Source of the DNA: Acetobacter malorum | GTDB lineage: Bacteria; Pseudomonadota; Alphaproteobacteria; Acetobacterales; Acetobacteraceae | Direction: 5' to 3' | NCBI RefSeq assembly: GCF_001580615.1 | Contig: NZ_LHZC01000056.1 | Location: forward strand, 248,001-312,000 | Length of the DNA stretch: 64,000 nucleotides | Shown here: piece after piece, positions 27,055 to 47,431 of the stretch | How positions within the stretch are numbered: position 1 is the stretch's first letter | Layout: each line of letters begins with the position of its first letter | Program-made: the position numbers and the translations under genes | The notes under the pieces: model-generated | Told to the model about the DNA's origin: nothing | The model's input: only the letters and a program-made list of their open reading frames with translations | The model's database searches: none

Positions 27055-27082
27055 CCGTGAAGATGATGGAAGGACTGACGAT

Positions 27083-28468: not shown

Positions 28469-28471
28469 TCC

Positions 28472-29218: not shown

Positions 29219-29224
29219 AGCCAC

Positions 29225-30148: not shown

Positions 30149-30170
30149 TGCCCCCTCTTTCTACCGGGCT

Positions 30171-30863: not shown

Positions 30864-31540
30864 GGCATACATGGGATTTCAGCTTTCTGGTGCATTATTT
30901 ATTACCATTGGGCCGGGGACTTATGAATACCATATGCCTGTCAGGTGTGGTCATGGTCGCCGGATTCACCCTCGGCCTGCTGGCGGCTATTGCCGCCATG
31001 TCTCCACTTCGCACCGTCCGGATGGCATCTGCAGCCTATGTCGAACTACTCCGCAATGTTCCGGCACTCGTCATTTTATTCCTGTTTTTTTACGTAATCC
31101 CGGTTCTCACCGGCTTTCAGAATGATCGCTTTCTGACTGCATGCGTCGCTTTTTCCCTTTATACCAGCGCTTATTTTTGCGAGATTCTGCGTGGAGGTTT
31201 TCTTGCGGTCGATCCTGGGCAGTGGGAAGGTGGCCAGGCATTAGGGCTGTCGCGCGCCGGAATTTTCTGCTGGATCATCGCGCCGCAGATCATACGAGCG
31301 GCGATGCCGTCCCTGGCCAATGAGGCCATAGAAATCGTCAAGATCAGCACCGTGGCCTCGACCATCGCTTTTCCGGAATTTCTCTATCAAACCAAGATTG
31401 TCAGCGATATCGAATACCGCCCCATCGAAACCTATACGGCATCCGCCATCGTGATGACCATCCTGATCCTGACCCTGACATGGGTAAGCCGGATCGCAGC
31501 GCGACACTTCGCAGGCCATCGGAGGAAAGAAAGAGAATGA
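30860..31540 (+). CDS. Polar amino acid ABC transporter permease (second)
   Basis: A 226-residue paralogous HisQ/GlnP-type permease. It has the [17 protein letters not shown] segment and the ATPase-contact loop [20 protein letters not shown]. Its start overlaps the previous permease and its stop overlaps the start of the ATPase gene (ATGA at 31537), so all three are cotranslated. Confidence 0.9.
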
Positions 31541-32313
31541 GCGTGATAGCGGTCAGAAATATTCACAAGCGCTTCGGCAACCAGGATGTGCTGAAAGGGA
31601 TCGACCTCAGTGTGGCGAAAGGCGAGACGGTCGTATTGCTCGGCTCCAGTGGCTCGGGGAAAAGCACCATCCTGCGCACTCTGAATCTGCTCGACTTGCC
31701 AGACGAGGGTGATGTTTTCCTGCACGGCAACAAGCTGGGCCAGCCACGCCCTGATGGCACGCGCCGTTATCGTGAAGGCGAACTGCGGAGTTTGCGCCGG
31801 CGCGTGGGGATGGTCTTTCAGCATTTCAACCTGTTTCCTCACCTGACGGTAGAAGAAAACATTATGATTGGTCTGCGGCGCGTCCTGAATTACAGCATCA
31901 CGCAGGCACGGGAAAAAGCGCGGCATCATCTGCATCATGTAGGTCTTGCCGAGAAGGCTCTGGCCTTCCCAGATACCCTTTCCGGCGGCCAGCGTCAGCG
32001 GGTAGCGATCGCGAGGGCACTGGCAATGGACCCGGACGTAATGCTGTTCGATGAAGCCACCTCGGCACTTGATCCTGAGCGCGTCAGCGAGGTTTTGCGG
32101 ACGATGAGGCAATTATCGCAAGAAGGCACCACGATGGTCGTCGTAACCCACGAGTTAGGCTTTGCCTACAACGTGGCGGACCGCGTCGTTTTTCTGCATG
32201 GCGGTCGCATTCTTGAGCAGGGTACTCCTACGGAGATTCTTCTGCACCCCACCCACGCTCCCACCCGGGAATTCCTGCACGCGCACACGGAATTCCGGTT
32301 GCCCAGCGCATAG
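31537..32313 (+). CDS. Polar amino acid ABC transporter ATP-binding protein
   Basis: A 258-residue ATPase of the GlnQ/HisP type. The start at 31537 overlaps the permease stop and has GGAGGAAAG upstream; the frame is open back to 31480 but that part lies inside the permease. Walker A is GSSGSGKST, the signature motif [16 protein letters not shown], Walker [14 protein letters not shown] and the switch His is in VVTHELG. It energises the importer formed with the two preceding permeases and the binding protein. Confidence 0.93.
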
Positions 32314-32325
32314 AAGGACGTTCGT

Positions 32326-33330
32326 GTGCTGATCCATCTGAGCCGGGCCGATGCACTGGCCCTTGCCTTTGATATTATGACGCATGCAGGAGCCCGGCCA
32401 GAAGTAGCCGGAATGATTGCTGACTGTCTGGTCCGTGCAGAATGCGACGGCGTTCTCAGTCATGGGCTGTCACGCCTGCCGGACCACGTTGCATCAATCC
32501 GTGCGCACTGGGCCGATCCCGCCGCGTTGCCCGATATCGTGCAGGTGCGGCCCGGCCTCCTGCGTGCCGATGGTGGCAACGGCTTCACGCCAGTTGCCGC
32601 CAGCATGGCCCGAAACCGCCTAACCGAAATGGCTCGGCAAGAAGGCCTGGCTGCGTTGTGCGTGCGTAACACGCATCATTTAGGGGCGCTGTGGTGCGAC
32701 ATCGAACCTTTGGCCGAAGAGGGGCTGGTGGCTGCCAGTTTCGTGCACTCCAGACCTCGCATGGCACCCTACGGCGCGAAGAAGGCTTTAATCGGCACCA
32801 ATGCCATGGCTTTCGCCTTTCCCGACGGACGAGGCGGGGCCATTACTTTCGACCAGGCATCAAGCGTGCTTTCTGTAGGTGACGTGCGCCGCCACGCTCG
32901 CGAGGGCCGCCCCCTTCCCCCAGCCGCCGGACTGACCCGCGAAGGCAGCCCGACGACTGCGGCAGACGACATCATGAATGGTGGTCCCCTTCTGCCGTTC
33001 GGTGGCCATAAGGGAGCTTCGATCGCCTTGATGGTGGAAATTATGGCAGCCGCAATGACGGGCGCGGCATTCGGTTTTGAAGACCATTCGTCCCGTTATC
33101 CCGGGGCAGCCAGTTCGAATGCGGGACTGTTTCTTCTGGTCATGGACCCGGCCATCACCTCCGGCAACGATGCCACGGAGCGCTTCATGCATCTCATCGC
33201 GCATCTGCATTCTGATCCGGACATTCGCCTGCCCGGCGAAAGAAGACACGCAAACCGCGCGCATGCCATGCAGAACGGCATCACTATCGAAGAAGATCTG
33301 GCGAATATCCTTTTTTCGTTACGGCCTTAA
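32326..33330 (+). CDS. LDH2/malate dehydrogenase-type NAD(P) oxidoreductase
   Basis: A 334-residue member of the family that includes ureidoglycolate dehydrogenase AllD, sulfolactate dehydrogenase and delta1-piperideine-2-carboxylate reductase (DpkA). The start is GTG 32326 with AGAAGGACG upstream, 12 bases after the ATPase stop. Family features are CDGVLSHGLSRLPDHVASI near the N terminus, CVRNTHHLGALW in the active-site region and PFGGHKGASIALMVEIMA toward the C terminus. Substrate can be a 2-hydroxy acid/2-oxo acid or a cyclic imino acid. Beside a DAO-type oxidase and amino acid importer, imine or 2-oxo acid reduction is plausible but unproven. Confidence 0.87.
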   Translation: MLIHLSRADALALAFDIMTHAGARPEVAGMIADCLVRAECDGVLSHGLSRLPDHVASIRAHWADPAALPDIVQVRPGLLRADGGNGFTPVAASMARNRLTEMARQEGLAALCVRNTHHLGALWCDIEPLAEEGLVAASFVHSRPRMAPYGAKKALIGTNAMAFAFPDGRGGAITFDQASSVLSVGDVRRHAREGRPLPPAAGLTREGSPTTAADDIMNGGPLLPFGGHKGASIALMVEIMAAAMTGAAFGFEDHSSRYPGAASSNAGLFLLVMDPAITSGNDATERFMHLIAHLHSDPDIRLPGERRHANRAHAMQNGITIEEDLANILFSLRP

Positions 33331-33378
33331 CTGCTTAACTTAGCGCAAAAATATCCTCTGACATCTGGGAGAATTCAC

Positions 33379-34488
33379 ATGAGCGGACCTGTTCTCTTCA
33401 CACCGATAGACATTCAGGGCCTAACCCTGCCCAACCGGATCGTCGTGGCACCCATGTGCCAGTATTCCGCTATCGACGGCCAAATGACGGACTGGCATCT
33501 GACCCACCTTGGCTCCATGGCGCTTTCTGGCGCAGGACTGTTAACAATCGAAGCCACAGCCGTAATGCCCGATGGACGCATCACTTATGCGGATGTCGGC
33601 CTGTGGGATGATCAGACTGAAAATGCCATGCGCCGTGCTCTGGACGTTGTCCGGGCAACTTCAGACGTTAAAATCGCCATCCAACTCTCCCATGCCGGAC
33701 GTAAGGCATCATGCGAGGTGCCGTGGAAAGGTGGAGCGCAAATCGCCCCCAACATGGCGAACGGCTGGCAAACGGCCGCGCCCTCGGATCTACCTTTTCA
33801 GCCAACTGATCATGCGCCCATGAGGCTAGACCGCGAAGGCATGGTCAGAATACGCGACGCCTTTGTCGCATCCGCTCATCGAGCCGCCAGAATGGAGATT
33901 GATGCCGTGCAGTTGCACGCGGCACATGGCTATCTTTTGCATCAGTTCCTTTCTCCCCTATCAAACCAAAGGGACGATTCCTATGGAGGGACGCTCGAAA
34001 ACCGGATGCGCTTCCCATTGGAAGTGTTCGACGCCGTACGTACGGCATTGCCTCACCACCCGGTCTCCGTTCGCGTATCGGGAACTGACTGGGTGGAGAA
34101 TGGTTGGGACATTGAACAGACCACTGCTTTCTCAAAGGCGCTCGAGGCACGCGGCTGCGACGCCATCCACGTTTCCAGTGGTGGAGTAAGCCCCCGGCAA
34201 AATATTTCGGTTGCCCCAGGATACCAAGTTCCACTGGCCCGTGCGGTTAAGCGGGAAACGTCCATCCCCGTTGTGGCCGTTGGCCTGATTACAGGCTTCG
34301 AACAGGCCGAAGCTATCGTGGCTACGGGCGATGCTGACATGATCGCCATTGCACGTACGATCCTTTACGATCCGCGCTGGCCTTGGCACGCAGCAGCGCA
34401 TCTCGGAGGTCATGTTAAAGCGCCCAACCAGTACCTCCGTTGTCAGCCACACATACATCAAGACCTCTTCAAAGTTCCATCATCATGA
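33379..34488 (+). CDS. Old-yellow-enzyme family NADH:flavin oxidoreductase (YqjM-like)
   Basis: A 369-residue FMN-dependent TIM-barrel ene-reductase of the YqjM/XenA class. The class-defining Cys is Cys27 in APMCQYSA. The substrate-binding region includes QLSHAGRKA, then LHAAHGYLLHQFLSPLSNQR and DDSYGGTLENR, the family's FMN-anchoring block. The C terminus has MIAIARTILYDPRWPWHAA. Members reduce activated C=C bonds or act in N-demethylation and ring-reduction pathways. It is the last gene of the rightward module, 48 bases after the LDH2-type gene, with an IS remnant beyond it. Confidence 0.92.
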   Translation: MSGPVLFTPIDIQGLTLPNRIVVAPMCQYSAIDGQMTDWHLTHLGSMALSGAGLLTIEATAVMPDGRITYADVGLWDDQTENAMRRALDVVRATSDVKIAIQLSHAGRKASCEVPWKGGAQIAPNMANGWQTAAPSDLPFQPTDHAPMRLDREGMVRIRDAFVASAHRAARMEIDAVQLHAAHGYLLHQFLSPLSNQRDDSYGGTLENRMRFPLEVFDAVRTALPHHPVSVRVSGTDWVENGWDIEQTTAFSKALEARGCDAIHVSSGGVSPRQNISVAPGYQVPLARAVKRETSIPVVAVGLITGFEQAEAIVATGDADMIAIARTILYDPRWPWHAAAHLGGHVKAPNQYLRCQPHIHQDLFKVPSS

Positions 34489-34706: not shown

Positions 34707-34937
34707 TGGGTCTGGGAACGCCTCTTCGCCCTGGTACAGGAACGTGGACAGGGCTTGGAGACGGTCTTTCTCGACGCCCCCAATATTCGTGCCCATCATA
34801 AGGCCGCTGGGGCCCAAAAAAGGAGACCACAGCGAGACCGTCTTAAAGCGCTTGGCCGCTCTCACGGCGGCTATGGAACCAAGGCCTGCGTAGTCGCTGA
34901 CAGGCGAGGTCGAGCTCACCTTCACTTTGGACTTGTA
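34707..34937 (+). mobile_element. IS5-family (IS427-type) transposase remnant
   Basis: The plus strand reads WVWERLFALVQERGQGLETV, then FLDAPNIRAHHKAAGAQKRR and ALGRSHGGYGTKACVVAD. These are the conserved N2 region and first catalytic Asp of IS5/IS427-type transposases (D-T-VRAH--AAGAKK and GRSRGG--TKIHA--D). No start or remaining core is present, so only a middle fragment survives. It marks the border between the amino-acid-type module and the methionine-type module. Confidence 0.8.
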
Positions 34938-35006
34938 ACGATTTGGTGCCGGTCAGGAGTGGCATAACGAGATAAGTGACCGGCACAAAGCTGTTACAAG
35001 TCCAAA
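34926..35006. repeat. 30-bp imperfect inverted repeat next to metI
   Basis: Arms 34926-34955 and 34977-35006 match in 26 of 30 paired positions. The outer 14 bases (TTTGGACTTGTAAC) and inner ten (TGCCGGTCA plus one) are perfect, with a 21-base spacer. It ends four bases from the metI stop. It could be a large transcript-ending hairpin or two facing ends of a lost mobile element, since the left arm overlaps the IS remnant. Confidence 0.7.
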
Positions 35007-35010
35007 TTGA

Positions 35011-35667
35011 TCATAGATTTCTCCTGAATTTACCCGCTAAAAAATTTCCAAAAATTTGAACAATTATTGTAATAATTACAAGTATCCCAACTATCCAGAG
35101 CATCATGCCTGTATTGAACCTCTGATATCCATAACGGATAGCAAGGTCACCTAATCCGCCAGCTCCAACCACACCCGCCATGGCCGAGGCGCTGATTAGG
35201 GTGACCACTGTAACCGTCAGGCCTGAAATCAATCCGGGTAGGGCTTCTGGCAGCAGTACAGACCATACGACTTTCAGGCGCGTTGCCCCCATGGAGCGTA
35301 TGGCTTCAATCAGCGCCGGGTCCACGTCTTTTAAAGACACTTCTGCAATGCGTGCAAAGTACGGAATAGCGGTGATTGAAAGAGGCACAATCGCAGCTCC
35401 GGTCCCAAGAGCTGTTCCAACCAGAAGACGGGTGAACGGGATGAGCAGGACGAGAAGAATAATAAAAGGTACAGCTCTGGTCAGATCAATAATAAAGCCT
35501 AGCCCTTTGCGAATAACAGGTGACGGCCATAAACCGTTTGGGGCCGTTACAGTCAGAAGCAGCGCTAGTGGTAATCCAAAAATTACGGCAATGGCGGCAG
35601 AAGCAAAAACCATTTCCAGAGTTGCCAGCGTTGCCTTCAGGAACAGATCAAATACCTGATGGGACAT
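35011..35667 (-). CDS. metI: Methionine-type ABC transporter permease MetI
   Basis: A 218-residue inner-membrane permease of the D/L-methionine uptake family. ATG 35667 (MSHQVFDLFL) overlaps the end of metN by 20 bases, as is usual for this pair; an upstream in-frame ATG at 35703 lies deeper in metN. Family landmarks are IRSMGATRLKVVWSVLLPEA (ATPase-contact loop) and SASAMAGVVGAGGLGDLAIR, with FNTGMMLWIVGILVIITIIV near the end. It is the last gene of a TonB receptor-metN-metI operon. Confidence 0.93.
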   Translation of the reverse strand: MSHQVFDLFLKATLATLEMVFASAAIAVIFGLPLALLLTVTAPNGLWPSPVIRKGLGFIIDLTRAVPFIILLVLLIPFTRLLVGTALGTGAAIVPLSITAIPYFARIAEVSLKDVDPALIEAIRSMGATRLKVVWSVLLPEALPGLISGLTVTVVTLISASAMAGVVGAGGLGDLAIRYGYQRFNTGMMLWIVGILVIITIIVQIFGNFLAGKFRRNL

Positions 35668-36691
35668 AGCCAAGCACTTCCATTTTTTCGACGTACTGCA
35701 CAATCCAGTTCAGGGCGTTCTCATCGTCGCGAGAGAGAATAACGAGATGTGTTGCGCACGCATCGGAATAATTTTCGTTCAAATTTACTCTCAGCACGTT
35801 TGATGTAATAGAAAACTGTTCATAAAGAGCAGGAATGAGAGACGTGAATAAGGCACTTTCTGAAACCGTCACACGCAGTGCAAGTAATCCTCCATGCGTT
35901 TTTTCGCTCTGTATAACAGACAGTCGCTGGCCTGAAAGAAAGCTCTGCTCTTCTCCTTCAAAAAACTGCGTGAATGTACGCTTCTCTTTTGCACCTGAAA
36001 AATCCTCTGTCCGTGCATCTTCGGTAATACGCCCCTGTTCTAAAACCATTACACGGCGCGCAAGGCGATGGATCACATCCATTTCATGGGTGATCAGCAC
36101 AATCGTGATGTCAAGTTCCTGATTGATCTTGCTCAGCAAAGCAAGAATAGATGATGTTGTTTCTGGATCCAGAGCAGATGTGGCTTCATCGCACAACAGG
36201 ACCGCCGGATTTGTGGCAAGTGCCCGCGCAATCCCTACCCTTTGCTTTTGTCCACCCGAAAGCTGAGAAGGATGTTTGTTTTCATGCCCTTCCAGTCCGA
36301 CCAGCCCTATCAGTTCCTGAATTCTTGCTGTACGCGCTGATTTGGAAAACCCTGCAATCTCAAGAGTCAGAGAAATATTACCCCACACAGTCCGGGATTT
36401 AAGCAGGTTAAAATTCTGGAAAACCATGCCAATACGCCGGCGAAGTGCAAGGAGTTCCTTTTCTTTCAACCTGCCGATTTCTTGGCCTTCAATAAAAACG
36501 CCTCCCGCATCCGGGGTTTCCGCGCCGTGCAGGCAGCGGAGCAGCGTTGTCTTCCCTGCCCCAGACCGTCCGATAATCCCAACAATGTCGCCTGCCTTTA
36601 TGGAAAAACTCACCCCCTCCAGTACAGGGCTGCCGCCAAAAGCTTTGTAAAGCCGGTCAACTCTCAGACTATCCGTCAGACTCTCAGGCAT
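35648..36691 (-). CDS. metN: Methionine-type ABC transporter ATPase MetN with NIL domain
   Basis: A 347-residue ATPase of the MetNIQ importer. Walker A is GRSGAGKTT, the signature LSGGQKQRVGIARALA, Walker [14 protein letters not shown], and the switch His is in LITHEMD. The C-terminal 75 residues form a NIL-type sensor domain (LLALRVTVSESALFTSLIPA, SNVLRVNLNENYSD) that in E. coli MetN binds methionine and shuts transport down. It follows the TonB receptor gene by 27 bases. The substrate may be methionine or another sulfur compound, because metQ here is coupled to a dioxygenase gene. Confidence 0.94.
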   Translation of the reverse strand: MPESLTDSLRVDRLYKAFGGSPVLEGVSFSIKAGDIVGIIGRSGAGKTTLLRCLHGAETPDAGGVFIEGQEIGRLKEKELLALRRRIGMVFQNFNLLKSRTVWGNISLTLEIAGFSKSARTARIQELIGLVGLEGHENKHPSQLSGGQKQRVGIARALATNPAVLLCDEATSALDPETTSSILALLSKINQELDITIVLITHEMDVIHRLARRVMVLEQGRITEDARTEDFSGAKEKRTFTQFFEGEEQSFLSGQRLSVIQSEKTHGGLLALRVTVSESALFTSLIPALYEQFSITSNVLRVNLNENYSDACATHLVILSRDDENALNWIVQYVEKMEVLGYVPSGI

Positions 36692-36718
36692 GCGATTTCT
36701 CTGAAAATGTGGCGTTGT

Positions 36719-39172
36719 TCATATTTTTAAATCCGCACGCAGATAGTAAAATCCGCCCTCTTCTGAAAGCTGCTGGCTAAGCGTATCATAGAGGTTATTG
36801 TTATAATCTGCCGTAAAAGAAGGCACCCGGCTCGGGTAAGCATTTCCAATATTATTGCCACCCAACGCCAGATGAAGCTGAGGCAGCACCTGATAGCCTA
36901 CCTCAAGATTGGTCACAAAGCGCGGGCGGTTGATCTGATGGTAAAACTCTGTGGTGGAAAAGGCATTTGGCCCAGAGACAAACGTCAGATTTGACGTTGT
37001 GTGGCCATAGCGAATTTCATGTACGGCCACATCCCATTTTCCCAATGTCCATCGGCCGCCAAAAATAAGCTTGTTGGAGGGGTTTTCCGTCGACATCAGG
37101 CTGATCTGCTGAGCATTCAGGACGGGATTGCCCTCCCCTGTCTGAGCAATATTTTTGACTTTGGTATGATTGAAATTAACGGCGGCATCCCAGTCCACCT
37201 TTCCAAACCGGCCGAAATCCGTGGCGTAACGGGCTGTGATATCAAGGCCTGTAGTGCGCGTGTTGGCACCATTGGTGAAATAATTTGTACTGACCGCGGA
37301 TTCATCTCCAGTAAACCCGGATGTATTCACGCCGGCAGCTGCGTAAGCCTCAATGGCGCGTGCGCCTGAAGCATATCCTCCATCAACAATCCGGTGTTTG
37401 ATAGAGATCGTATAAGCATCAATGTTGATATGAAGCCGTGGCAAAGGGTTCAGTATCATCCCGACGCTGAAATTTGTTGATGTTTCAGGACGCAACCCCG
37501 GCGAACCCAAGGCACGTGCAGCTGCAGAGTTTGCTGCAATTTGCCCCGTAGCGTAGTTCGGGCTGGAAATAAAAGCGGCAAAATTCTGCTCAGCAAGAGT
37601 AGGTGCCCGAAAGCCAGTACTAGCTGTCCCACGGAACCCGATATATTTGTTGATATCATAACGGCTGGAAATTTTGCCGGTCCGTGCGTTCCCAACGTCA
37701 TTATAATGCTCAAACCGACCAGCAATATCCACCCGCCAGCGCGAGATAATTTGTGTCGACAAATCAATATAAGCTGCGGCCACATGTCTGGCGGAATTAA
37801 CCGCGTTTTCTGGCGTTTCTCCCTGGTACCCCTGTGCCCCGCTCAGATAATATGACAACGGCTCCCCGGCCCCGATTGAATAGGTGTCTCTGCGATATTC
37901 GCCCCCAAACGCAATATTCAGAGGTCTGTAGAGAAACGGCAGATCAACACCCCGCCGGATATCGAGGTTATTTGTCCACTGCTGATTGGAGTAATTGCCC
38001 AGGTAAAAGCGGGACGGTGAATAACCGGTTTCTTTGTAGGCATCCGCATTGGCTGAGTTGTAATCGGCCAGCCTATCGTGGTCTCCGCCAATGGTGGAAC
38101 TAAGATCCCAGTCAAAGCCGTATAATTTTTTCCCTCGAAACCCTAACGTAAAGCCATAATCATTTTCAGGCATTGTCTCCACAGGTTCAAAACCATTCGG
38201 ATACATGCCCTGAAGCCCGTCGGCTGCCGTCGTGCTTGGCGCGCGTAAATAGGTCCAGCGTTCAGCATCCCGATGTGTAAAGGTGCCAAACCCATAGAGT
38301 TCAACCTGATCTGTCAGATGATAGCCGAAATTCGCCTCGATTGATTCCCGTGTGACCTGCGGCTGACCAGTTGCGAGGTCATTATTACGCCCGGTTCTGG
38401 GGTCAATCCCTGTCCTCTGGGTACGATCCTGATGCTTGAATTCTGCACTGATATTCACATATCCACGCTGCCCCAGAGCAAACCCCGCGTTCAGGTTTTC
38501 CCCTGTCGTAAAGCCATCTCCGGCAGCATATCCGCCGTTCGTGGCTTGCATGTGCAGACCGTGACTGTTTGATTTCAGGATCACATTGATAACGCCTGCA
38601 ATGGCGTCAGATCCATACTGGGCTGCGGCACCATCCTGCAGGATTTCAATGTGGTCAATGGCCGAGATTGGCAACATGTCTAAATCAACAGGCGTCGTGC
38701 CCTGCTGGGAAGATGCGTCGACAGCAATGGCTGCTGTTGTATGCCGTCTTTTTCCATTAATCAGAACCAGTGTCTGATCAGCATTCAAACCACGCAGACT
38801 CAGCGCATCCACGACTGACCCCTGATCTGATCCATTAACTTCCCGGCTGACGGACGGAGAAAGCTGGACAAGAGCCTCCCGAATATCCGTCATGCCCGTT
38901 GCTCTGAGCTGATCCCCGCCAATAATGGTGATTGGACTGACACTTCTTGCAGCGGTTTGAGACGGATCACGTGTTCCTGTCACAATCACCTGTTCAGGTT
39001 CATCAGAAGTTTCATGGTCTGATTGTGTTGTACGGAATGTATTCCTGACAACAGCCACCTTCTGAGAACGCGCGCCCTTATCAGAAGGGTTTTGTCCACT
39101 TCCGCTCTCCGCAGCCAGAGCGGTCGAGGCAGAGAGACCAAAAACAATCGGTGCCAGAATATAACAACGCAT
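36719..39172 (-). CDS. TonB-dependent outer-membrane receptor (MetNIQ module)
   Basis: An 817-residue TonB-dependent receptor; ATG 39172 (MRCYILAPIVFGLSASTALA) begins directly with a signal peptide, and the upstream in-frame ATG 39232 would add a polar leader. The TonB-box region is EQVIVTGTRDPSQ. The plug includes LSLRGLNADQTLVLINGKRR and DHIEILQDGAAAQYGSDAIAG, strongly like the receptor at 23758-26241. The barrel ends FYYLRADLKI. It is the first gene of an operon with metN and metI and diverges from the dioxygenase-metQ pair. Coupling of a TonB receptor to a methionine-type importer is uncommon and suggests a larger or scarcer substrate. Confidence 0.9.
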   Translation of the reverse strand: MRCYILAPIVFGLSASTALAAESGSGQNPSDKGARSQKVAVVRNTFRTTQSDHETSDEPEQVIVTGTRDPSQTAARSVSPITIIGGDQLRATGMTDIREALVQLSPSVSREVNGSDQGSVVDALSLRGLNADQTLVLINGKRRHTTAAIAVDASSQQGTTPVDLDMLPISAIDHIEILQDGAAAQYGSDAIAGVINVILKSNSHGLHMQATNGGYAAGDGFTTGENLNAGFALGQRGYVNISAEFKHQDRTQRTGIDPRTGRNNDLATGQPQVTRESIEANFGYHLTDQVELYGFGTFTHRDAERWTYLRAPSTTAADGLQGMYPNGFEPVETMPENDYGFTLGFRGKKLYGFDWDLSSTIGGDHDRLADYNSANADAYKETGYSPSRFYLGNYSNQQWTNNLDIRRGVDLPFLYRPLNIAFGGEYRRDTYSIGAGEPLSYYLSGAQGYQGETPENAVNSARHVAAAYIDLSTQIISRWRVDIAGRFEHYNDVGNARTGKISSRYDINKYIGFRGTASTGFRAPTLAEQNFAAFISSPNYATGQIAANSAAARALGSPGLRPETSTNFSVGMILNPLPRLHINIDAYTISIKHRIVDGGYASGARAIEAYAAAGVNTSGFTGDESAVSTNYFTNGANTRTTGLDITARYATDFGRFGKVDWDAAVNFNHTKVKNIAQTGEGNPVLNAQQISLMSTENPSNKLIFGGRWTLGKWDVAVHEIRYGHTTSNLTFVSGPNAFSTTEFYHQINRPRFVTNLEVGYQVLPQLHLALGGNNIGNAYPSRVPSFTADYNNNLYDTLSQQLSEEGGFYYLRADLKI

Positions 39173-39201
39173 CTTATAGTGATTTCCATAAATAACTTTA
39201 A

Positions 39202-39226
39202 CACAATTATTCCATGTGGAATTGTG
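39202..39226. promoter_or_regulatory. Imperfect palindrome upstream of TonB receptor 36719
   Basis: CACAATTATTCCA (39202-39214) and TGGAATTGTG (39217-39226) are inverted copies around TG, the left arm carrying three extra bases. It lies 30 bases upstream of the chosen receptor start. A related inverted repeat with the shared core GTGGAATT occurs upstream of the receptor at 45038-47332. Confidence 0.45.
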
Positions 39227-39260
39227 AGTCAAACAACGAATAATTTATGGATTTTCTATA

Positions 39261-39282
39261 TAACGCGATTTAATATGCGTTA
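39261..39282. promoter_or_regulatory. Inverted repeat in the divergent TonB/dioxygenase promoter region
   Basis: TAACGC (39261-39266) and GCGTTA (39277-39282) are perfect arms separated by ten AT-rich bases, midway between the divergent receptor and dioxygenase genes. It is a plausible binding site for an unknown regulator; no regulator gene is nearby. Confidence 0.35.
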
Positions 39283-39363
39283 AATGGTGCCTGTCAGAGC
39301 CTGACGCCGGTTTCGGCCACGGTCTGACATCTGGCAAATACCGTAGCTGAAAGTGATCAACGC

Positions 39364-40407
39364 ATGACGCGGACTGCTTATTCTCTGCCAACCATTGATC
39401 TTTCGCTCTGGGACAAAAGAGGAAAGCCCGACGAAGCCTTTCTGGATTCACTGAGGCTTGCTGCCCATGAATACGGCTTTTTTTACCTGAAAGGGCATGG
39501 AATTCCCTTATCCCTGAATGCCAAACTGCTCCGGCAGGCGCAGCAGTTTTTTTCTCTGCCTTTCGAGCAGAAAGAGCAGATTGCCATGATTCATTCCCCG
39601 CATTTCAGAGGATATAATCGTGCAGGGCTGGAGCTAACGCGCGGCAGGCAGGACTGGCGTGAACAGATTGATATCGGCTCAGAAAAAGCTGCCCTGGCAG
39701 ATCTTGAGAATAAGCCCGCCTATCTGCGCCTTCAGGGGCCTAATCAATGGCCTGAAGCCCTCCCTCACTTCAAAAAGACGGTTCTGGCCTGGCAGAAGCA
39801 AACTCTCAATGTGCTGCGCCTGCTTCTTGAAGCACTCTCCCTGTCTCTGGCACAGGATAAAACAGCCTTTCATCCGGTTGTGAATGACGCGCCCTATCTC
39901 CTTTTAAAGCTGATCCATTATCCGGGTTCTCAAAATAATGATGAAGGTCAGGGGGTCGGTCCGCACAAAGACAGTGATCTGCTGTCTCTCATCCTACAGG
40001 ATAACGAAGGCGGCCTTGAAGTTGAACTGACGTCCGAGCAATGGCTCAAGGCTCCGCCACAGCCGGATACGTTTATCGTCAACATCGGTGAACTGCTTGA
40101 AGTCGCAACCAACGGGTATTTCAGGGCAGCCATTCATCGTGTGGTCAGTCCCCGATCGGGGCATGACAGACTCTCCGCCGCATTTTTCCTTGGTGCGCAA
40201 CTGGATTCCACAATACCCATCCTGCCTTTGCCGGAATCCCTCACAAAATCCAGCATCGGGCTGACGCTGGACCCGGAAAATCCTCTTTTCTCCCAGATTG
40301 GACAAAACACCTTGAAGGGCCGCCTCAGATCGCATCCCGACGTCGCAGCCCGCCATCACAGTGACCTTCTTTCTCCGGCATTATCGAAAGTTCTTCACCA
40401 TGCCTAA
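39364..40407 (+). CDS. Isopenicillin-N-synthase-like 2-oxoglutarate/Fe(II) dioxygenase
   Basis: A 347-residue non-haem iron oxygenase of the IPNS/flavanone-3-hydroxylase family. The N-terminal domain has LRLAAHEYGFFYLKGHGIP and FRGYNRAGLE. The iron ligands are His201 and Asp203 (GPHKDSDLLSL) and His258 (AAIHRVV), and the 2-oxoglutarate-binding Arg269-x-Ser271 follows (DRLSAAFF). The stop overlaps the metQ start by eight bases, so the two are cotranslated. A dioxygenase coupled to a methionine-type binding protein suggests oxidation of an imported compound, for example to release sulfur; the substrate is unknown. Confidence 0.9.
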   Translation: MTRTAYSLPTIDLSLWDKRGKPDEAFLDSLRLAAHEYGFFYLKGHGIPLSLNAKLLRQAQQFFSLPFEQKEQIAMIHSPHFRGYNRAGLELTRGRQDWREQIDIGSEKAALADLENKPAYLRLQGPNQWPEALPHFKKTVLAWQKQTLNVLRLLLEALSLSLAQDKTAFHPVVNDAPYLLLKLIHYPGSQNNDEGQGVGPHKDSDLLSLILQDNEGGLEVELTSEQWLKAPPQPDTFIVNIGELLEVATNGYFRAAIHRVVSPRSGHDRLSAAFFLGAQLDSTIPILPLPESLTKSSIGLTLDPENPLFSQIGQNTLKGRLRSHPDVAARHHSDLLSPALSKVLHHA

Positions 40408-41248
40408 TGTGTTCTTTCCCCGACGTTCTACCACACAGGGTCGTCGTTTTAACCGTCGTACTGTCCTGACGCTTCTGGCTGCGACACCAGTCATTCTGTC
40501 ATCTGCCGCAAGAGCACAACAGTCTCGCCCGATACGGGTTGGCATCCTCTCCGGTGAGGATGAGGATATCTGGAACATTGTTCAGGAAAATGCCCGGACA
40601 GCCGGTCTGGCCATTGAGGCTATTCCCTTTTCTGAAGGAACACCAATCAATGCGGCGCTGGCGGCCGGAGATCTGGATGCGAATGCCTTCCAGCATGGCC
40701 CCTATCTTCAAGCACAAAACACGGCTCTGGGCGCACATATTGTCCCGGTCGGTAATACATATTTCGCACCAGTCGGGTTTTATTCCAAAAAATGGACAAG
40801 CCTTTCTGCTCTGCCGCAAGGAGCAACAATTGGGGTTCCCGCGGACCCGACAAATGAAGGCAGAGCCCTGAAGCTGCTTCAATCCTTAGGTCTCTTAAAA
40901 ATTGCAACCGTACCGGATGGAATGCCCACGGCGCTGGATATTGCGGAAAACCCCAAGTCTCTGACAATTAAAGAGCTGGATGATCCTGTTCTGGCGCGAT
41001 CCCTCCCCGATCTGGATGCCGGGGTGGTTATTACGGAATGGGCCTATAAAGCAGGGATTGACCTCAACAAAGAGCGCCTCGCGCGCGAGAGTATGGAAAA
41101 TAACCCGTACATCAATTTTATCGCGGTGAATGAGAACAATGCCCATGCAGCATGGATACAGCCGCTCGTGAAAGCTTTCCAGCAACCCAATGTGCGGGAA
41201 AAACTCCTTGAAGCCTATCATGGCGCAATTATTCCATCGTGGAGTTAA
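40400..41248 (+). CDS. metQ: MetQ/NlpA-family substrate-binding protein lacking a lipobox
   Basis: A 282-residue periplasmic binding protein of the MetQ/NlpA family. ATG 40400 lies inside the dioxygenase stop region; the frame is open further back. The N terminus has a twin-Arg-rich signal (RRFNRRTVLTLLAATPVILS) cleaved near ARA-QQ, with no lipobox Cys, whereas most Gram-negative MetQ proteins are lipoproteins. Family landmarks are IRVGILSGEDEDIWNIVQEN, DANAFQHGPYLQ, FAPVGFYSKKW, and PADPTNEGRALKLLQSLGLL. It would feed the MetN-MetI transporter encoded on the opposite strand about 4 kb away. Confidence 0.92.
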   Translation: MPNVFFPRRSTTQGRRFNRRTVLTLLAATPVILSSAARAQQSRPIRVGILSGEDEDIWNIVQENARTAGLAIEAIPFSEGTPINAALAAGDLDANAFQHGPYLQAQNTALGAHIVPVGNTYFAPVGFYSKKWTSLSALPQGATIGVPADPTNEGRALKLLQSLGLLKIATVPDGMPTALDIAENPKSLTIKELDDPVLARSLPDLDAGVVITEWAYKAGIDLNKERLARESMENNPYINFIAVNENNAHAAWIQPLVKAFQQPNVREKLLEAYHGAIIPSWS

Positions 41249-41324
41249 ATGAATAATGCACCACAAGGGGACGCAGAATGCTGAGCAGGCCATTTTGTAA
41301 GGCTAGAAAAATACCACTTATCGC

Positions 41325-41996
41325 TCACTCACTATGATTTTTATAGACAATATCAAAAATGCGCCGGCGTCTCCCCTGCCAGTATTTTTCCAGAGATCGA
41401 AAAATTCTGTCGTCCTCGCACTGCGTCACATTGAACCGCATGAAGGAAGACGCCGACTGACTGACACTAAAGATATTTCCCGAAGCATGGCCGCCTTTGC
41501 GTCCATCCGGAAGGTGCCAGCCGATGACTCTTCGTGAGAAGAGCTCCAGCGCCACAGCCAAGTAAAGCCAGCCTTCACGTGTCCAGATGTATGTTATGTC
41601 CGCTGTCCATTTCTGGTTAAGTGCTGTTGCTGAAAAATCCTGTCCCAGAAGGTTGGGTTCAATACTGTGCGTGTGCGAACTGTTGGTGGTCACTTTGAAG
41701 CGTCGTGTCCTGACAACCCGGATGTCATTCTCCCGCATCAGGCGTCCTACACGACGATGCGCGGCAGAAAAGCGACGAGTTATGAGAGCCCTGGTCATAC
41801 GGGTGCGCCTGTAGCACTGCTGGTTCTGCATATGAATAGTCCGGATATGCACCATCAGGGCATTATCCTGCCTTCTACGGGCACAGACCGGACGCGTGCG
41901 CCAACCTCGAAAACCCCGGTCACTGACAGCAAAGAAACGGCAGACGCGCTCTTGTGAAAGCGGACCATGATACCGCGCGATGAACGCAAACCTCAC
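41325..41996 (-). pseudogene. IS3-family OrfB (integrase core), C-terminally truncated
   Basis: The first 165 or so residues match IS3 OrfB. There is an HTH_21-like region (RCFFAVSDRGF-type start with MRENDIRVVRTRRFKVTTNS), then the first catalytic Asp in QKWTADITYIWTREGWLYLA, and VALELFSRRVIGWHLPDG. The next conserved block with the second Asp (HSDRGSQY) and the final Glu is absent; the frame runs on with unrelated residues to a stop at 41325. It overlaps orfA by four bases, consistent with programmed frameshifting in intact relatives. Not functional. Confidence 0.8.
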
Positions 41997-42608: not shown

Positions 42609-43379
42609 TCAATTGTCCCTTTGACACTCTTTGTTCGATTTTGGTCGCAGCATCAGTATTTCTCTCTTTGCTATTATCGCTTCATTTTTATATAAAGAGT
42701 TCGTTTGTAATGCAGAAAAAACAACGCTCCCAACTAAACGTCCCGCGGCGACATCTGTCGGATAATGAAATCCGCATACGAGACGACTCTCACCATAATC
42801 GTATCCCCTATGCAGCAAAACATCTGCCAAATTCGGTTGTAATTCTGATAAGATCAACGCCCATGCCCAACCTATTGCCGCATGACCGGAAGGATAAGAA
42901 CTGGTTTTTGCCAAAAGCTGACCATCTACACATGGCTGAAATTTTAAATCAACGTAAGGCCGTATCCTCGTTTGTCCATCAACTTTGAGGGATTTTTGGA
43001 CGGTTTCAACATCCATCACAATACGAGCAAGCATCGTCGCCAAAACAGGAGCACGTTGCGGATCAATTTTTTTTCCTAATGCACATTCAAATACTTTCGG
43101 TGCATCGGGTTGACCCAACTGTGCATCTTCAGCCGCCTGCTCTCTGCGTGCCGGGGTCGCTAAAGCATGAATTTGCAGTAACTGCTTTTTATCGTTGAGG
43201 TCCTGCCATGAGCCGCTCACAGGAAAAGATGGCAGAAAAGCTGCCGCATGTGGTGCTTGACGTGAATGTAAATAACCATGCGGATACTCCGCAGGCATTG
43301 ACCACAAATGCGGTTTAGGATGAGCGCAGGCTGTTAACAGCAATAACATAGAAAAAAGAAATAAGATGTTTTTTTGCAT
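42609..43379 (-). CDS. PAP2-family (class A-like) acid phosphatase, putative lipoprotein
   Basis: A 256-residue phosphatase. ATG 43379 begins a lipoprotein signal (ILFLFSMLLLLTACAHP, lipobox LTAC). The PAP2 catalytic motifs are all present: KVDGQTRIRP (K-x6-RP), SSYPSGHA (PSGH) and SRLVCGFHYPTD (SR-x5-H-x3-D). This layout is that of class A non-specific acid phosphatases, which hydrolyse phosphomonoesters in the periplasm. It starts four bases after the phoD stop and is cotranscribed with phoD and the TonB receptor upstream, pointing to phosphorus scavenging. Confidence 0.9.
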   Translation of the reverse strand: MQKNILFLFSMLLLLTACAHPKPHLWSMPAEYPHGYLHSRQAPHAAAFLPSFPVSGSWQDLNDKKQLLQIHALATPARREQAAEDAQLGQPDAPKVFECALGKKIDPQRAPVLATMLARIVMDVETVQKSLKVDGQTRIRPYVDLKFQPCVDGQLLAKTSSYPSGHAAIGWAWALILSELQPNLADVLLHRGYDYGESRLVCGFHYPTDVAAGRLVGSVVFSALQTNSLYKNEAIIAKREILMLRPKSNKECQRDN

Positions 43380-43383
43380 ATAC

Positions 43384-45003
43384 TTACACTTGAACCAGAC
43401 GTGGTGAACCTCGTTCCACAATAAATGTGGCCGAGTTACTGCACGGACTATTCTGATTTGTGGCATCAACTATGCTACGCATCACAGTTTTTACATATTT
43501 TCTATTAAATTCAGATAAAATATACCCTCTCTTACGGCTATCAAAAAATTTTATGTCCGGATTTTCTGGTAAAACTGAAACAATATTCTTATAAGGCGGT
43601 CCGAAAGACGTAATAGAACTTCCTAAAAATTCAGGGGCGACAATTTGCGACTTAACATTATGTGCACGTCTTCTGATTTCACTCACAAAATGAGAATGGT
43701 AATCTCCGCTAAATATAACAGGAGATGGAGGAGAGAGATAAGCAAGTGCATCTGTCAAACGGTTTCGGGCTCCCTGGAAACCATCCCAAGTATCCGTCCA
43801 GTAACGATAGCCGTTATGTTCTGGGGTCGGAGCCCTTAAAGAAGCGACCATTAGATCTTGAGCAATGACAGTCCACAACACTGACCGATCTTTCAGCGCT
43901 TCGAAGAGCCATTGTTCTTGCATTTGGCCTAAGAACGTCCGGTTTGGATCAGCCAGATCTCGGCAGGTATCTCGCTCCATATGGCCGTCACGCCCTACAG
44001 TGCCCGGCGCACAGGGTTGTCGTGCCCGATACTGGCGACCATCGAGCATATTAAGCACGGCAAGGTCTCCAAAATAGAAACGACGATAGATTTTATATTC
44101 TCTGCCATACCCCAAAACACTCGGTCTTACTGGCATATTTTCATACCATGCCTGGTATGCTGCTCTTTGCCGCAAGACAAAATTTCGCACCTGTTCTTCT
44201 GGATGGGAAGACCAGACCCCTGAATAATCATCTTCGACTTCGTGGTCATCCCAGATAGGGAGCCAGGAGGTTGCGGCGTGAGCAGCCTGCAACGATGGAT
44301 CTGTTTTCTGCAAAGCATATCGCCAGCGATACCCATCTAAGGTCGATGCTGTAGAGGTCTGATAACTTCTGACTATACCCGGATAATGCGCTGTATTAAT
44401 ATTGTGTTCGTAAATATAATCGCCCAGAAACAAAATTAGATCTGGTCTATCATCAGCAATATGCTGATATGCACTGTAATACCCTGCCTCCCAATGCGCA
44501 CAGGATGCTACAGCAACTTTTAATGAAGAGACTGCTGCGCCTTGATGCGGAAGAGTGAGGCCTCGACCAACAATGCTTTGCGCGCCCAAAGCTGTAAAAC
44601 GATACCAGTAAGGCCGATAGGCCTGTAAACCTTGCAGCACGACCCGCAATGTGTAGCCCGAAACCGCACTTGTTTGTATAATGCCGCTTTGCACAATACG
44701 CTGCATTTGCGAGTCTGTGCTCACCTGCCAATGAACGTCTACTATATCAGGTAATGCTGGAGGCTGATCAGGCAAAAGAGGCAATGTGCCTAGTCGGGTC
44801 CAGATAACAAATCCTTCTGTATCTGGATCCCCACTTGCAACGCCAAAAGGAAAAACAGTTTGATCTTTTTGAAATGAGTAAAAACTCCTTCTAAAAGCAG
44901 ATGCCTGCTTTCCAAAAGCTACGCTTGCAGCGGAAGACATTCCACCCACAAGCGCCTGACGCCGTGAAAAGAAAGAGGCTTTACTCATAATAGTATTTTT
45001 CAT
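43384..45003 (-). CDS. phoD: PhoD-type alkaline phosphatase D
   Basis: A 539-residue phosphatase/phosphodiesterase of the PhoD family, exported folded by the Tat system: the N terminus has FFSRRQALVGGMSSAASVAF. Metal-site motifs are FPFGVASGDPDTEGFVIWTR, LFLGDYIYEH, PIWDDHEVEDDYSG and FSGDYHSHFV. The start may be 45003 or 44988. AGGAAGG lies directly before the former. Length is normal. It sits between a TonB receptor gene (35 bases upstream) and the PAP2 gene, forming a three-gene leftward operon. PhoD enzymes release phosphate from diesters and monoesters such as nucleic acids, phospholipids or teichoic acids. Confidence 0.93.
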   Translation of the reverse strand: MKNTIMSKASFFSRRQALVGGMSSAASVAFGKQASAFRRSFYSFQKDQTVFPFGVASGDPDTEGFVIWTRLGTLPLLPDQPPALPDIVDVHWQVSTDSQMQRIVQSGIIQTSAVSGYTLRVVLQGLQAYRPYWYRFTALGAQSIVGRGLTLPHQGAAVSSLKVAVASCAHWEAGYYSAYQHIADDRPDLILFLGDYIYEHNINTAHYPGIVRSYQTSTASTLDGYRWRYALQKTDPSLQAAHAATSWLPIWDDHEVEDDYSGVWSSHPEEQVRNFVLRQRAAYQAWYENMPVRPSVLGYGREYKIYRRFYFGDLAVLNMLDGRQYRARQPCAPGTVGRDGHMERDTCRDLADPNRTFLGQMQEQWLFEALKDRSVLWTVIAQDLMVASLRAPTPEHNGYRYWTDTWDGFQGARNRLTDALAYLSPPSPVIFSGDYHSHFVSEIRRRAHNVKSQIVAPEFLGSSITSFGPPYKNIVSVLPENPDIKFFDSRKRGYILSEFNRKYVKTVMRSIVDATNQNSPCSNSATFIVERGSPRLVQV

Positions 45004-45037
45004 CCTTCCTGTTTGCATTTCATACAAAAATCAATTT

Positions 45038-47332
45038 CTAGAAGTCAGCACGCAAACGTACTTCCCATGTTGCGGGCAATCCTGCCACTGCAATGTTATC
45101 TCCCCCCACGAAGTAACCGCGTGTTACATCATAGTGTTTATTTGTAATATTTCTGCCGATACCTTCTATTTTCCATGGACCATTATGAGGCGCGAACGAA
45201 ATATATCCGCCCCAAAGCGTATACCCGGGCAACACATCAACTGCAGTCAACGAATGATCTGTCGTGCGCAAGCTGTAATCCATGCCAGTCACAATATCAT
45301 AACGCCCGGCATGCCACGTATAATCAACAGACCCATTCGCCGTAAAATGAGGGACATCTATTGTCCGGCCAGAAACATTTTGAGAAATACCGGTCCACAC
45401 ACCATTAACTTTCTGTGCGCCCACAACCGTACTGAATTTGTCATAGGCACCCGTCACATAAGCGCCTGATTGAGAAATATGGAGATCTGGCAGAGGAGAC
45501 CACGCAAACTCATATTCTCCCCCAAACATATGGGATTTAGGGGCATTAACGAACAGTCCAATAGCAGACCCCGTTGTTGGGCTATAAACTTTTGACTGAA
45601 CCTGCCGATCAAAATAATCGTAGTAAAAGAAATCTGCATTAAATTTAATATTATATTTCGGAATAACCAGCTTATTACCGACTTCAAATGAATAAAGTTG
45701 TTCTGGCTTAAACGGATTGGTCATTTGGTTCACATCAGATGTGTTGTATACTGTGAAACCTCCTGACTTTATCCCCTTACTAAATGTAAAATACAACATA
45801 TCATGCGCCATAGGATGATACTGAATACTAAATTTAGCTGATGGAAGGGTATAATCCTGGGATTGGCGCGCCACATAATTCTGTGGATTGGTAACAACAC
45901 CCGCAGTCAGATAATGTGCATATGCATTATTAAGTGTGCGCTTTTCATGCTCGATACGAATACCTCCTACAACCTGCAACTTTGGTGTAATATCGTATTG
46001 CACCTGCCCGAACCCACTTATAGTATTAACCTCTTGCGAGTAGCGGACATCTCCATCTGTATTATACAGAGCCTCAAAGCCCGACTGGTAGCGGTCATTA
46101 AGCCACTGATGACCGTAATAGATACCTCCAATCCAGTGGAAACGCCCTGATGTGTTAGACGAAAAACGCAATTCATCTGCAACTACGTTCGCTCGTGTAC
46201 GAAAAGCAACATCCGCTAAAGACAGAGCTGAATCGTCAAAATTATCATATTCGTTACGCTGCATATAATCGTAACTTGCAAGATTGGTTAACGTAAAATT
46301 CTGAAATTGCTTATCTAATCTCAAGCTTGTACCGCCTGTATCAATATGGCTGTAAGGCTTCTGGTCAGGATTAATACCAACTTCTTTCGCAAATTGCTCC
46401 GAAGTACCCCAACGTGTATCATAACGGCTCGCAGAAGCTGGCATTGGGTTCGTTTTACTTAAACTCGTAATAGGAGACCATGCATAAGGGCCAATTGCGT
46501 CTGATCGATCTCTGCTTCCATGCAGATTCCATTCAAATTTTAAAGTATTAGATGGTGTATAATCTACAAGAAGACGCGCAGCACCACGGTTGACATTGCC
46601 TAAATGCGTCTGGGTTTCTGGATTATATTGCCAAGCCCCACCTTGCTGTGTTTGTCCCGACAAACGAAATCGTAATTTGTCGTTAATAGGGCCAGAAATA
46701 TAGCCATCGACCTTCCCGCTATCGAAGCGGCCATATTGGGCAGTAATACCGGTTTTGAAAGTCTCCGTTGGTTTGTTAGTGATATAATTGATAGCGCCCC
46801 CAGTCGTATTGCGCCCATAGAGCGTACCTTGAGGACCGCGTAACACTTCCACACGCTGCATATCAAACATCATTCCATTAATACCAAATGGAATCGGATT
46901 TGCTACTTCATCAATATATATCCCAACAGTTGGTGAATTATTACTTGAGTAATTACTAAAACCAACCCCACGTATTGTATATGTATATTGTCCACTTCCA
47001 TATGACGGCTGTATTTGCAATGATGGCGTTGCATACTGAAGATCAAAAACGTTATTAATATTTCTATTTTCAAGAACTTTGGCAGAGATAACGCTAATAG
47101 ATGTACCAATATTCTGAGGATTCTGAGCACGACGCTCTGATGTCACAATGACGTCTTCCACACGAGAGGCCGGCACAGAAGAAAGCTTTTTAAGTTTAGG
47201 TTTTTTTTTCGACGCTGCAGAATGCTCCGACGTGAGCGATGATTTTGTATCCTGCGCATAGCTTATAGTCGTTACAGGCATCGCAACGATTCCTGCCATT
47301 AAAGCCAGGCGCCTTTTCTTTATGAAAGACAT
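45038..47332 (-). CDS. TonB-dependent outer-membrane receptor (phosphatase operon)
   Basis: A 764-residue TonB-dependent receptor. ATG 47332 (MSFIKKRRLALMAGIVAMPV) starts a signal peptide ending near SYAQ; upstream in-frame ATGs exist at 47365 and 47383. The TonB-box region is VEDVIVTSERRAQNPQNIG. The plug has TIRGVGFSNYSSNNSPTVGI and RVEVLRGPQGTLYGRNTTGG, and the barrel ends WEVRLRADF. It is a close paralogue of the receptor at 57580-59937 (same SERR...PQNIG, NNVFDLQY, GVGF and ETQQGG blocks). It is AT-rich compared with the genes at 50-56 kb. Its operon partners are phoD and a PAP2 phosphatase. Confidence 0.9.
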   Translation of the reverse strand: MSFIKKRRLALMAGIVAMPVTTISYAQDTKSSLTSEHSAASKKKPKLKKLSSVPASRVEDVIVTSERRAQNPQNIGTSISVISAKVLENRNINNVFDLQYATPSLQIQPSYGSGQYTYTIRGVGFSNYSSNNSPTVGIYIDEVANPIPFGINGMMFDMQRVEVLRGPQGTLYGRNTTGGAINYITNKPTETFKTGITAQYGRFDSGKVDGYISGPINDKLRFRLSGQTQQGGAWQYNPETQTHLGNVNRGAARLLVDYTPSNTLKFEWNLHGSRDRSDAIGPYAWSPITSLSKTNPMPASASRYDTRWGTSEQFAKEVGINPDQKPYSHIDTGGTSLRLDKQFQNFTLTNLASYDYMQRNEYDNFDDSALSLADVAFRTRANVVADELRFSSNTSGRFHWIGGIYYGHQWLNDRYQSGFEALYNTDGDVRYSQEVNTISGFGQVQYDITPKLQVVGGIRIEHEKRTLNNAYAHYLTAGVVTNPQNYVARQSQDYTLPSAKFSIQYHPMAHDMLYFTFSKGIKSGGFTVYNTSDVNQMTNPFKPEQLYSFEVGNKLVIPKYNIKFNADFFYYDYFDRQVQSKVYSPTTGSAIGLFVNAPKSHMFGGEYEFAWSPLPDLHISQSGAYVTGAYDKFSTVVGAQKVNGVWTGISQNVSGRTIDVPHFTANGSVDYTWHAGRYDIVTGMDYSLRTTDHSLTAVDVLPGYTLWGGYISFAPHNGPWKIEGIGRNITNKHYDVTRGYFVGGDNIAVAGLPATWEVRLRADF

Positions 47333-47366
47333 TTTAGAAGATACATAAATTACGAGGCCGCTCATG

Positions 47367-47431
47367 TCACTAAATAATTCCACTATATATGTCAGTTATT
47401 AACCTTCATTAACACACGTGGAATTTAGTGA
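47367..47431. promoter_or_regulatory. Inverted repeat upstream of TonB receptor 45038
   Basis: TCACTAAATAATTCCAC (47367-47383) and GTGGAATTTAGTGA (47418-47431) are inverted copies, the left arm with three extra bases, separated by 34 bases. The second arm shares GTGGAATT with the palindrome upstream of the receptor at 36719-39172. The spacing would suit a looping repressor or two half-operators. Confidence 0.4.

Follow-up and report, generated by a model that had tools for sequence, protein, structure and literature searches.

The pairing of an importer with an oxygenase that cleaves carbon-sulfur (C-S) bonds is already known from the taurine and alkanesulfonate systems. In Rhodospirillum rubrum, MetQ-, MetN- and O-acetylhomoserine (OAH) sulfhydrylase-type proteins (A0774-A0791) rise on methylthioadenosine as compared with sulfate (PMC4958253); the methylthio-alkane reductase (MAR) genes marBHDK are Rru_A0793-0796, close to the end of that range (PMC12552129). 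Could a methionine-type importer encoded beside an oxygenase of another family also serve sulfur supply? The question is posed by a gene cluster in a 64,000-nucleotide stretch of Acetobacter malorum DNA (contig NZ_LHZC01000056.1, positions 248,001 to 312,000; hereafter the window, whose numbering is used throughout). The cluster joins genes for a MetNIQ-type importer to genes for a TonB-dependent receptor and a predicted Fe(II)/2-oxoglutarate (2OG) dioxygenase. We put the probability that it is a sulfur-scavenging module, which would import an organosulfur compound other than methionine and free its sulfur by oxidation, at roughly 0.53.

Gene content and conservation of the cluster

The cluster comprises five open reading frames (ORFs), whose start codons are all predictions. 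Leftward, on the minus strand, are read a TonB-dependent outer-membrane receptor (36719-39172; Plug domain PF07715, 66.5 bits; barrel PF00593, 101.3 bits), a MetN-type ATPase whose NIL region, at the C-terminus, is weak (35648-36691; PF00005, 128.5 bits) and a MetI-type permease (35011-35667, with its predicted ATG at 35667; PF00528, BPD_transp_1, the frame being scanned as 35011-35676). Rightward, on the plus strand, follow a dioxygenase of the isopenicillin N synthase (IPNS)-like family (39364-40407; PF14226, 113.5 bits; PF03171, 85.1 bits) and a MetQ/NlpA-type periplasmic binding protein (40400-41248; PF03180, 234.8 bits). The divergent genes are separated by 191 bp (39173-39363). With both the Plug and the barrel domain, the receptor belongs to the TonB-dependent class. 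The original prediction, made from the letters of the window, had placed receptor, metN and metI leftward and dioxygenase and metQ rightward of a 191-base gap; all five ORFs are indeed present, and their families agree in Pfam and NCBIfam. It had also held dioxygenase and metQ to be translationally coupled. The overlap exists: the metQ ATG (40400-40402) precedes the dioxygenase TAA (40405-40407), giving 8 shared nucleotides, from which coupling is likely, short of proof. The MetN and MetI frames overlap by 20 nt.

The whole split arrangement is found again, its frames unbroken, in an uncultured Acetobacter metagenome-assembled genome (rows L031/L035; genome G036) and in five Gluconobacter (kondonii, cadivus, albidus, cerevisiae and cerinus; L036-L040), and the layout is therefore more than a product of chance. 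All six of these relatives preserve the 8-nt overlap (ATGNNTRA), and their TonB receptor is 87-88% identical. An Acetobacter persici draft (L041; genome G010) repeats the layout with broken frames. In this draft (JCM 25330; L041/L033) the oxygenase, receptor and MetQ are each interrupted, their pieces being 84-99% identical to the window; the breaks could reflect sequencing error or decay, and the broken copies (L003, L033, L041) were excluded from trees and counts. Within the genus the cluster is rare and patchy: 3 of 37 genomes carry it (the window's own, G036 and, broken, G010), and another (G032) has the oxygenase without MetQ. A piece of an IS3-type transposase (rve and HTH_21 domains; 41325-41996, minus strand) lies immediately downstream of metQ and may have a bearing on this distribution.

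In the intergenic region, an AGTCAA block is identical in all eight aligned sequences. Read leftward, it gives TTGACT, a 17-nt spacer and then TAA in seven of the eight (CAA in L038), which we read as a possible leftward promoter. A promoter scan of 34800-41400 returned 4 promoter-like sites against 6.1 expected, and the TTGACT site was not among them.

The oxygenase and its genomic neighbours

Does the oxygenase belong with those that release sulfur from taurine and sulfonates? Its family is a different one, as had been predicted: PF14226 and PF03171, both above cut-off, are its only Pfam families at E<=0.001, and the TauD-type family (PF02668) gave no match. Together with the HxD...H triad and the RxS motif, these matches place it in the DIOX_N/2OG-FeII_Oxy (IPNS-like) superfamily. 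The catalytic residues H201-x-D203, H258 and R269-x-S271 are present in 57 of 57 rows (window included). The enzyme also bears a C-terminal NPLF...LKGRLRSHPDVA stretch; the pattern LKxRLxSHPxxA is matched strictly in 44 of the 57 rows, with variants in the remaining 13, and SHPxxA occurs in none of seven outgroup oxygenase rows. IPNS proper binds δ-(L-α-aminoadipyl)-L-cysteinyl-D-valine (ACV) and uses no 2OG; the window protein scores 32-37 bits against the listed IPNS chains. Its predicted structure (mean pLDDT 85.3) comes closest to PaIPNS of Pseudomonas aeruginosa (6jyv, VIA; Z 35.8, root-mean-square deviation (rmsd) 2.9, 313 aligned), tied with a reconstructed ancestor of the ethylene-forming enzyme (EFE; 9ovh; Z 35.7, rmsd 2.0, 285 aligned). 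The model indicates a fold and a likely cofactor; it indicates no substrate.

Orthologues of the oxygenase (E<=1e-60) occur in 14 of 200 genomes of the family and in 21 of 398 of the phylum, the window's own being included in both counts, and further ones were found in Actinomycetota and Chloroflexota. To survey their surroundings we used 56 orthologue rows with flanks (at least 44% identity; row L147 duplicates L054), in which neighbours were labelled by BLAST to a small reference set. Within 6 kb, MetQ was found in 19 rows, an OAH-sulfhydrylase-type gene (OAHS; at least 36% identity) in 18, one row having both, and MAR-type genes in two; eight rows carried solely Ssu, luciferase-like monooxygenase (LLM), acyl-CoA dehydrogenase (ACAD) or TonB labels. 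When the flanks were narrowed to 1.5 kb, a labelled sulfur neighbour (all sulfur labels, Ssu included) was present beside 41 of the 56 orthologues and beside none of 26 distant paralogues, a control that is weaker than its number since 24 of these paralogues belong to the window's own genus and many are near-copies. The Ssu label was dropped wherever MetN was present, as SsuB and MetN are both ATPases of ATP-binding cassette (ABC) systems and cross-match; weight was put only on MetQ, OAHS and MAR.

Individual loci give substance to these counts. A Klebsiella plasmid record holds oxygenase, MetQ, ATPase and permease in one run. The oxygenase adjoins a transsulfuration enzyme in Azospirillum, in Roseomonas (with SsuA/SsuD) and in Pseudoroseomonas (with a sulfate ABC system), the last of these enzymes being an OAH sulfhydrylase (TIGR01326, above cut-off). 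LLM genes lie near it in Phyllobacterium, with msuE, and in Rhizobium, with an acyl-CoA-dehydrogenase-like gene. In A. suratthaniensis it is preceded by genes for an ATPase resembling SsuB, a dehydrogenase like SfnB/DszC (its scores below cut-offs), an NtaA/DmoA-type monooxygenase (above cut-off), a TonB receptor and a lactate-dehydrogenase-like protein. In Chlorohelix it lies downstream of nifBHDK-like genes whose D subunit scores 475 bits against the MAR structure 9fmg and 473 against the same-length chain 9d9u, as compared with at most 134 against every other listed nitrogenase chain. Genome G593, also from the Acetobacteraceae, has it with an OAH sulfhydrylase gene on one side and a NifB/MarB-type gene on the other, and two pairs of MarDK type lie at distances of about 14 and 21 kb. 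This company of MetQNI, OAHS, Ssu/LLM and MAR-type genes points to a sulfur-related role of the oxygenase. The module as a whole very probably serves sulfur nutrition.

Some features of these loci deserve separate record. Genome G593 (L195, L145) encodes four MAR-type D subunits that are 43-46% identical to that of Chlorohelix. Two of these genes lie no more than about 25 kb from the oxygenase, and the surroundings hold OAH sulfhydrylases as well as Ssu-like genes. The Klebsiella segment is on an IncFIB/IncHI1B plasmid record, next to IS5 and Tn3 transposases, and its oxygenase-MetQNI operon had no megablast match in E. coli genomes. A similar segment with the same MetI accession is found on a 14.9-kb linear record, "Pseudomonas sp. 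A2 plasmid", which may be a contaminant (rows L055 and L188 for the two segments).

The same neighbourhoods bear on two other explanations. TonB receptors often transport chelates, and the cluster might take up a thio- or amino-acid-type metallophore, with the receptor importing the metal chelate and the oxygenase modifying or opening it; the receptor's matches to NCBIfam models of siderophore and B12 receptors all score far under the cut-offs, and a TonB receptor gene (30% identical to the window's) lies near the linked operon of L089. We regard this as quite improbable, given how many orthologues sit among sulfur genes and given that the oxygenase-MetQNI run of Klebsiella, Trabulsiella, Kosakonia and Aeromonas includes no TonB gene. 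Slightly more improbable still is that the cluster detoxifies an amino-acid analogue of plant or microbial origin, with or without sulfur, or draws carbon or nitrogen from it. The broad substrates of 2OG oxygenases would accommodate this, as would the closest solved relatives, whose substrates are diverse where a function is known at all; it leaves unexplained why the oxygenase is linked time and again to genes of OAH sulfhydrylase, SsuD-like and MAR type.

How the oxygenase and MetQ came together is also informative. A maximum-likelihood tree of the 57 oxygenases (window included) and seven outgroup rows requires five changes of the MetQ label, and well-supported branches force at least four of them. 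The MetQ-linked members are one clade of Acetobacter and Gluconobacter, one of enterobacteria and Aeromonas, two rows from another alphaproteobacterial family, and L101. Since three of the changes could be one gain and two losses, it is uncertain how often MetQ was gained. Gene orders vary as well (oxygenase-Q-N-I, Q-N-I-oxygenase, or split), and the linked MetQs derive from separate MetQ lineages. That the genes were joined more than once, and in differing orders, speaks for a common function.

The binding pocket of MetQ and the tail of MetN

If the importer carries something other than methionine, its pocket might be expected to differ. A report on Neisseria meningitidis MetQ gives the methionine contacts as Y81, F98, H100, Y103, R156, N213 and N238 (PMC6739813); of the two considered here, the equivalent of E. 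coli Tyr69 packs on the methionine thioether and that of Asn202 holds the alpha-groups. By alignment, the contacts correspond to E. coli Y69, F86, H88, Y91, R144, N202 and N229. The window MetQ has Gly at Tyr69 and Ile at Asn202, so that two of the seven are changed.

These changes go with linkage to the oxygenase. Of 20 linked MetQs, 16 carry Gly at position 69, one Ala, one Asn and two Tyr; the Tyr is thus lost in 18, whereas all 53 distinct unlinked rows have it. The latter derive from 55 "unlinked" rows (two of them PDB chains), from which two repeats were removed, L185 being the gene of linked L097 and L177 that of L130; seven near-identical unlinked MetQs, all with Tyr69, had been excluded from that set. 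Position 202 has lost its Asn in eight of the 20 (Ile in seven, namely the window and its clade; Val in one) as compared with none of the 53. R144 is retained in every MetQ row compared. The Gly at position 69 arose in two separate MetQ lineages, and the Ala stands in a third row; the MetQ tree needs three changes at this position, two of them forced. One genome with a linked MetQ (G097; Gly69) also encodes a MetQ 91% identical to that of E. coli (Tyr69), so the linked importer is there a second system. The linked MetQs look re-specialised, judging from these residues.

The NIL domain senses methionine for trans-inhibition, and in most linked MetNs it is weak or missing. The tail after the ABC core is absent from 13 of 18 linked MetNs (13 of 19 with the window, which has a tail) versus 1 of 27 unlinked ones. 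Against a Pfam cut-off of 24 bits, the NIL domain scores 13.6 at its expected place in the window, 21.7 in L031 and 24.1 in L040; of four unlinked MetNs, three score 39.9, 32.3 and 39.6, and L106 has none. The sole unlinked tail-less MetN (L126) comes from a genome (G482) that has the oxygenase elsewhere, beside an OAH sulfhydrylase.

All three window subunits fall below the cut-offs of the NCBIfam methionine-transporter models, which are strict and were scored on the window proteins alone: MetN has 275.9 bits of 499.7 (TIGR02314), MetI 193.1 of 212 (PRK10782.1) and MetQ 177.6 of 374, or 182.4 of 228.85 for the MetQ/NlpA subfamily. The window MetQ contains no cysteine and hence no lipobox. A missing lipobox was rejected as a mark of linked MetQs, as 28 of 29 unlinked loci also lack it by the same simple pattern, the printed stretch starting after the signal start for some rows.

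The original prediction suggested a sulfur compound, and not plain methionine, as the ligand. The loss of Tyr69 and Asn202 from linked MetQs and the weak or missing NIL tail of most linked MetNs make "not plain methionine" likely; with the sulfur neighbours, they lend the claim comparative support. The ligand would probably be an amino-acid-like thioether that differs from methionine.

A candidate sulfur-scavenging route and its relation to described systems

How might such a module work? The TonB receptor would carry the organosulfur compound across the outer membrane, and the re-specialised MetQ would bind it there. MetNI would then take it from MetQ into the cytoplasm, where the Fe(II)/2OG dioxygenase would hydroxylate a carbon adjacent to sulfur; the unstable product would collapse to methanethiol or another small thiol, which transsulfuration-family enzymes would assimilate into homocysteine, methionine or cysteine. 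Expression would occur under sulfur limitation. We infer four parts of this model: the ligand, the reaction, the thiol product and the expression pattern. C-S cleavage to a thiol is the part on which we are hesitant, holding it at a little under even odds. Papers on Serratia marcescens, P. aeruginosa and Stenotrophomonas have no bearing on the module, apart from the remark that methionine transporters of S. marcescens rise without sulfate.

Several observations weigh against this model. The neighbourhoods are not uniform: four of the 56 rows have only a weaker OAHS-like match (34-35%) at 4-5 kb, and seven, four of them from Actinomycetota, have no labelled neighbour; inspection of the genes flanking some unlabelled loci gave nothing clearly sulfur-related. 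No sulfur gene was recognised among the window's flanking genes scanned with Pfam and NCBIfam, and the OAHS-like matches of the window genome are only 30-40% identical to the linked type. Independent events are few. The linked MetQs form about four groups, the 13 tail-less MetNs only two (four Gluconobacter, nine enterobacterial or Aeromonas-like), and a sign test did not reach significance (p 0.5), only 2 of the 4 independent pairs being informative. Two linked MetQs (L094, L097) retain both Tyr69 and Asn202 and are real exceptions, and the L094 MetN has a strong NIL domain (54.9 bits). Finally, a published hint of induction is only indirect and comes from another genus: in Yersinia pseudotuberculosis, a putative orthologue of the oxygenase is reported to be induced by H2O2 treatment of the wild type, a stimulus other than sulfur limitation.

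Part of the evidence would suit an ordinary importer of methionine or D-methionine, with the oxygenase degrading surplus methionine or oxidising it to homocysteine or methanethiol as a sulfur source. The window MetQ retains five of the seven contacts (R144, N229, F86, H88 and Y91) and is the sole clear MetQ of its genome, in which one further weak match has an E value of 3.6e-4; both facts speak for plain methionine. The site also tolerates change, contacts other than Tyr69, Arg144 and Asn202 varying among unlinked MetQs as well. In one set of 30 unlinked MetQs, position 229 is not Asn in seven (six Cys, one Asp). In a second set of 30 background MetQs (the best match per genome, which favours canonical ones, with the oxygenase checked for within 1.5-kb flanks), position 88 is not His in seven. 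An altered contact alone is thus no proof of a new ligand, and our confidence in the ligand is lowered a little on that account. Set against the replacements at positions 69 and 202, the weak or absent NIL tail, the separate E. coli-like MetQ in a genome with a linked system and the adjoining sulfonate, LLM and MAR-type genes, which suggest a supply of scarce organic sulfur, this explanation appears unlikely to us, and a ligand other than methionine appears fairly likely.

The six Cys229 proteins (L103, L104, L106, L110, L115, L116) all come from Acetobacteraceae. One report has Asn229->Ala weakening methionine binding by five orders of magnitude (PMC12357092), and these MetQs may likewise have another ligand.

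Returning to a sulfur-scavenging function, a bolder version of it is rather unlikely. In this version the oxygenase family would be the aerobic counterpart of MAR, cleaving methylthioethers to methanethiol with O2 and 2OG for direct methionine synthesis. Different bacteria would have joined different importers to it, MetQ types repeatedly, with the methionine fit lost in at least two MetQ lineages.

If the scavenging model is true, a widespread group of oxygenases, annotated only as "isopenicillin N synthase family", acquires a physiological function in sulfur supply, and the annotation of many neighbouring "methionine" importers is wrong; the pocket change would be a sequence mark separating linked from true methionine importers. 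Acetic-acid bacteria and enterobacteria would then have an O2-dependent use of thioether-type sulfur, with volatile thiols as possible products.

Two further regions of the window were noted in passing. An operon-like run at 26711-34488 (plus strand) encodes a pipecolate-oxidase-like FAD enzyme, a protein of cupin-like appearance, a polar amino-acid-type ABC system, an old-yellow-enzyme relative and an Ldh-type dehydrogenase, whose best NCBIfam match, L-sulfolactate dehydrogenase, is far below its cut-off (153.8 bits of 500). A stretch of lower GC (0.44-0.45) at 42609-47383 (minus strand) includes a second TonB receptor (45038-47383; Plug domain by Pfam) and, by eye only, PhoD- and PAP2-like phosphatase genes.

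Among the open-licence papers listed in searches for this module or its chemistry, none gave a description of it. How, then, does the locus compare with what has been described? It has all three MetNIQ subunits by Pfam and NCBIfam families and shares most methionine contacts; it differs from MetNIQ in its subunit scores, its two changed contacts, its NIL domain below cut-off and the position of metQ, apart from metNI and downstream of the oxygenase. PaIPNS (6jyv), which reportedly does not bind ACV and lacks a known function (PMC12329707), is likewise of the IPNS family, with HxD and RxS visible in its alignment to the window oxygenase, but the two are only about 31% identical. The R. rubrum salvage region (Rru_A0774-A0796) has a parallel in L057 and L145, where oxygenase orthologues have genes of this kind as neighbours; the window cluster shows no recognisable MAR gene, and MAR is oxygen-independent (PMC12552129), unlike the proposed oxygenase route.

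A close parallel in logic is with the sulfate-starvation systems of TauABCD, SsuEADCB and AtsK type. There, too, an organosulfur ABC importer is tied to an oxygenase that frees sulfur, and TauD and AtsK share the 2OG/Fe(II) chemistry. The linkage of importer and oxygenase is present here in the layout, the neighbour counts and the tree, as in TauABCD-like scavenging; C-S cleavage is its predicted element. What is new relative to the taurine and alkanesulfonate logic is the DIOX_N/IPNS-like family of the oxygenase, the MetNIQ type of the importer and the TonB receptor within the cluster.

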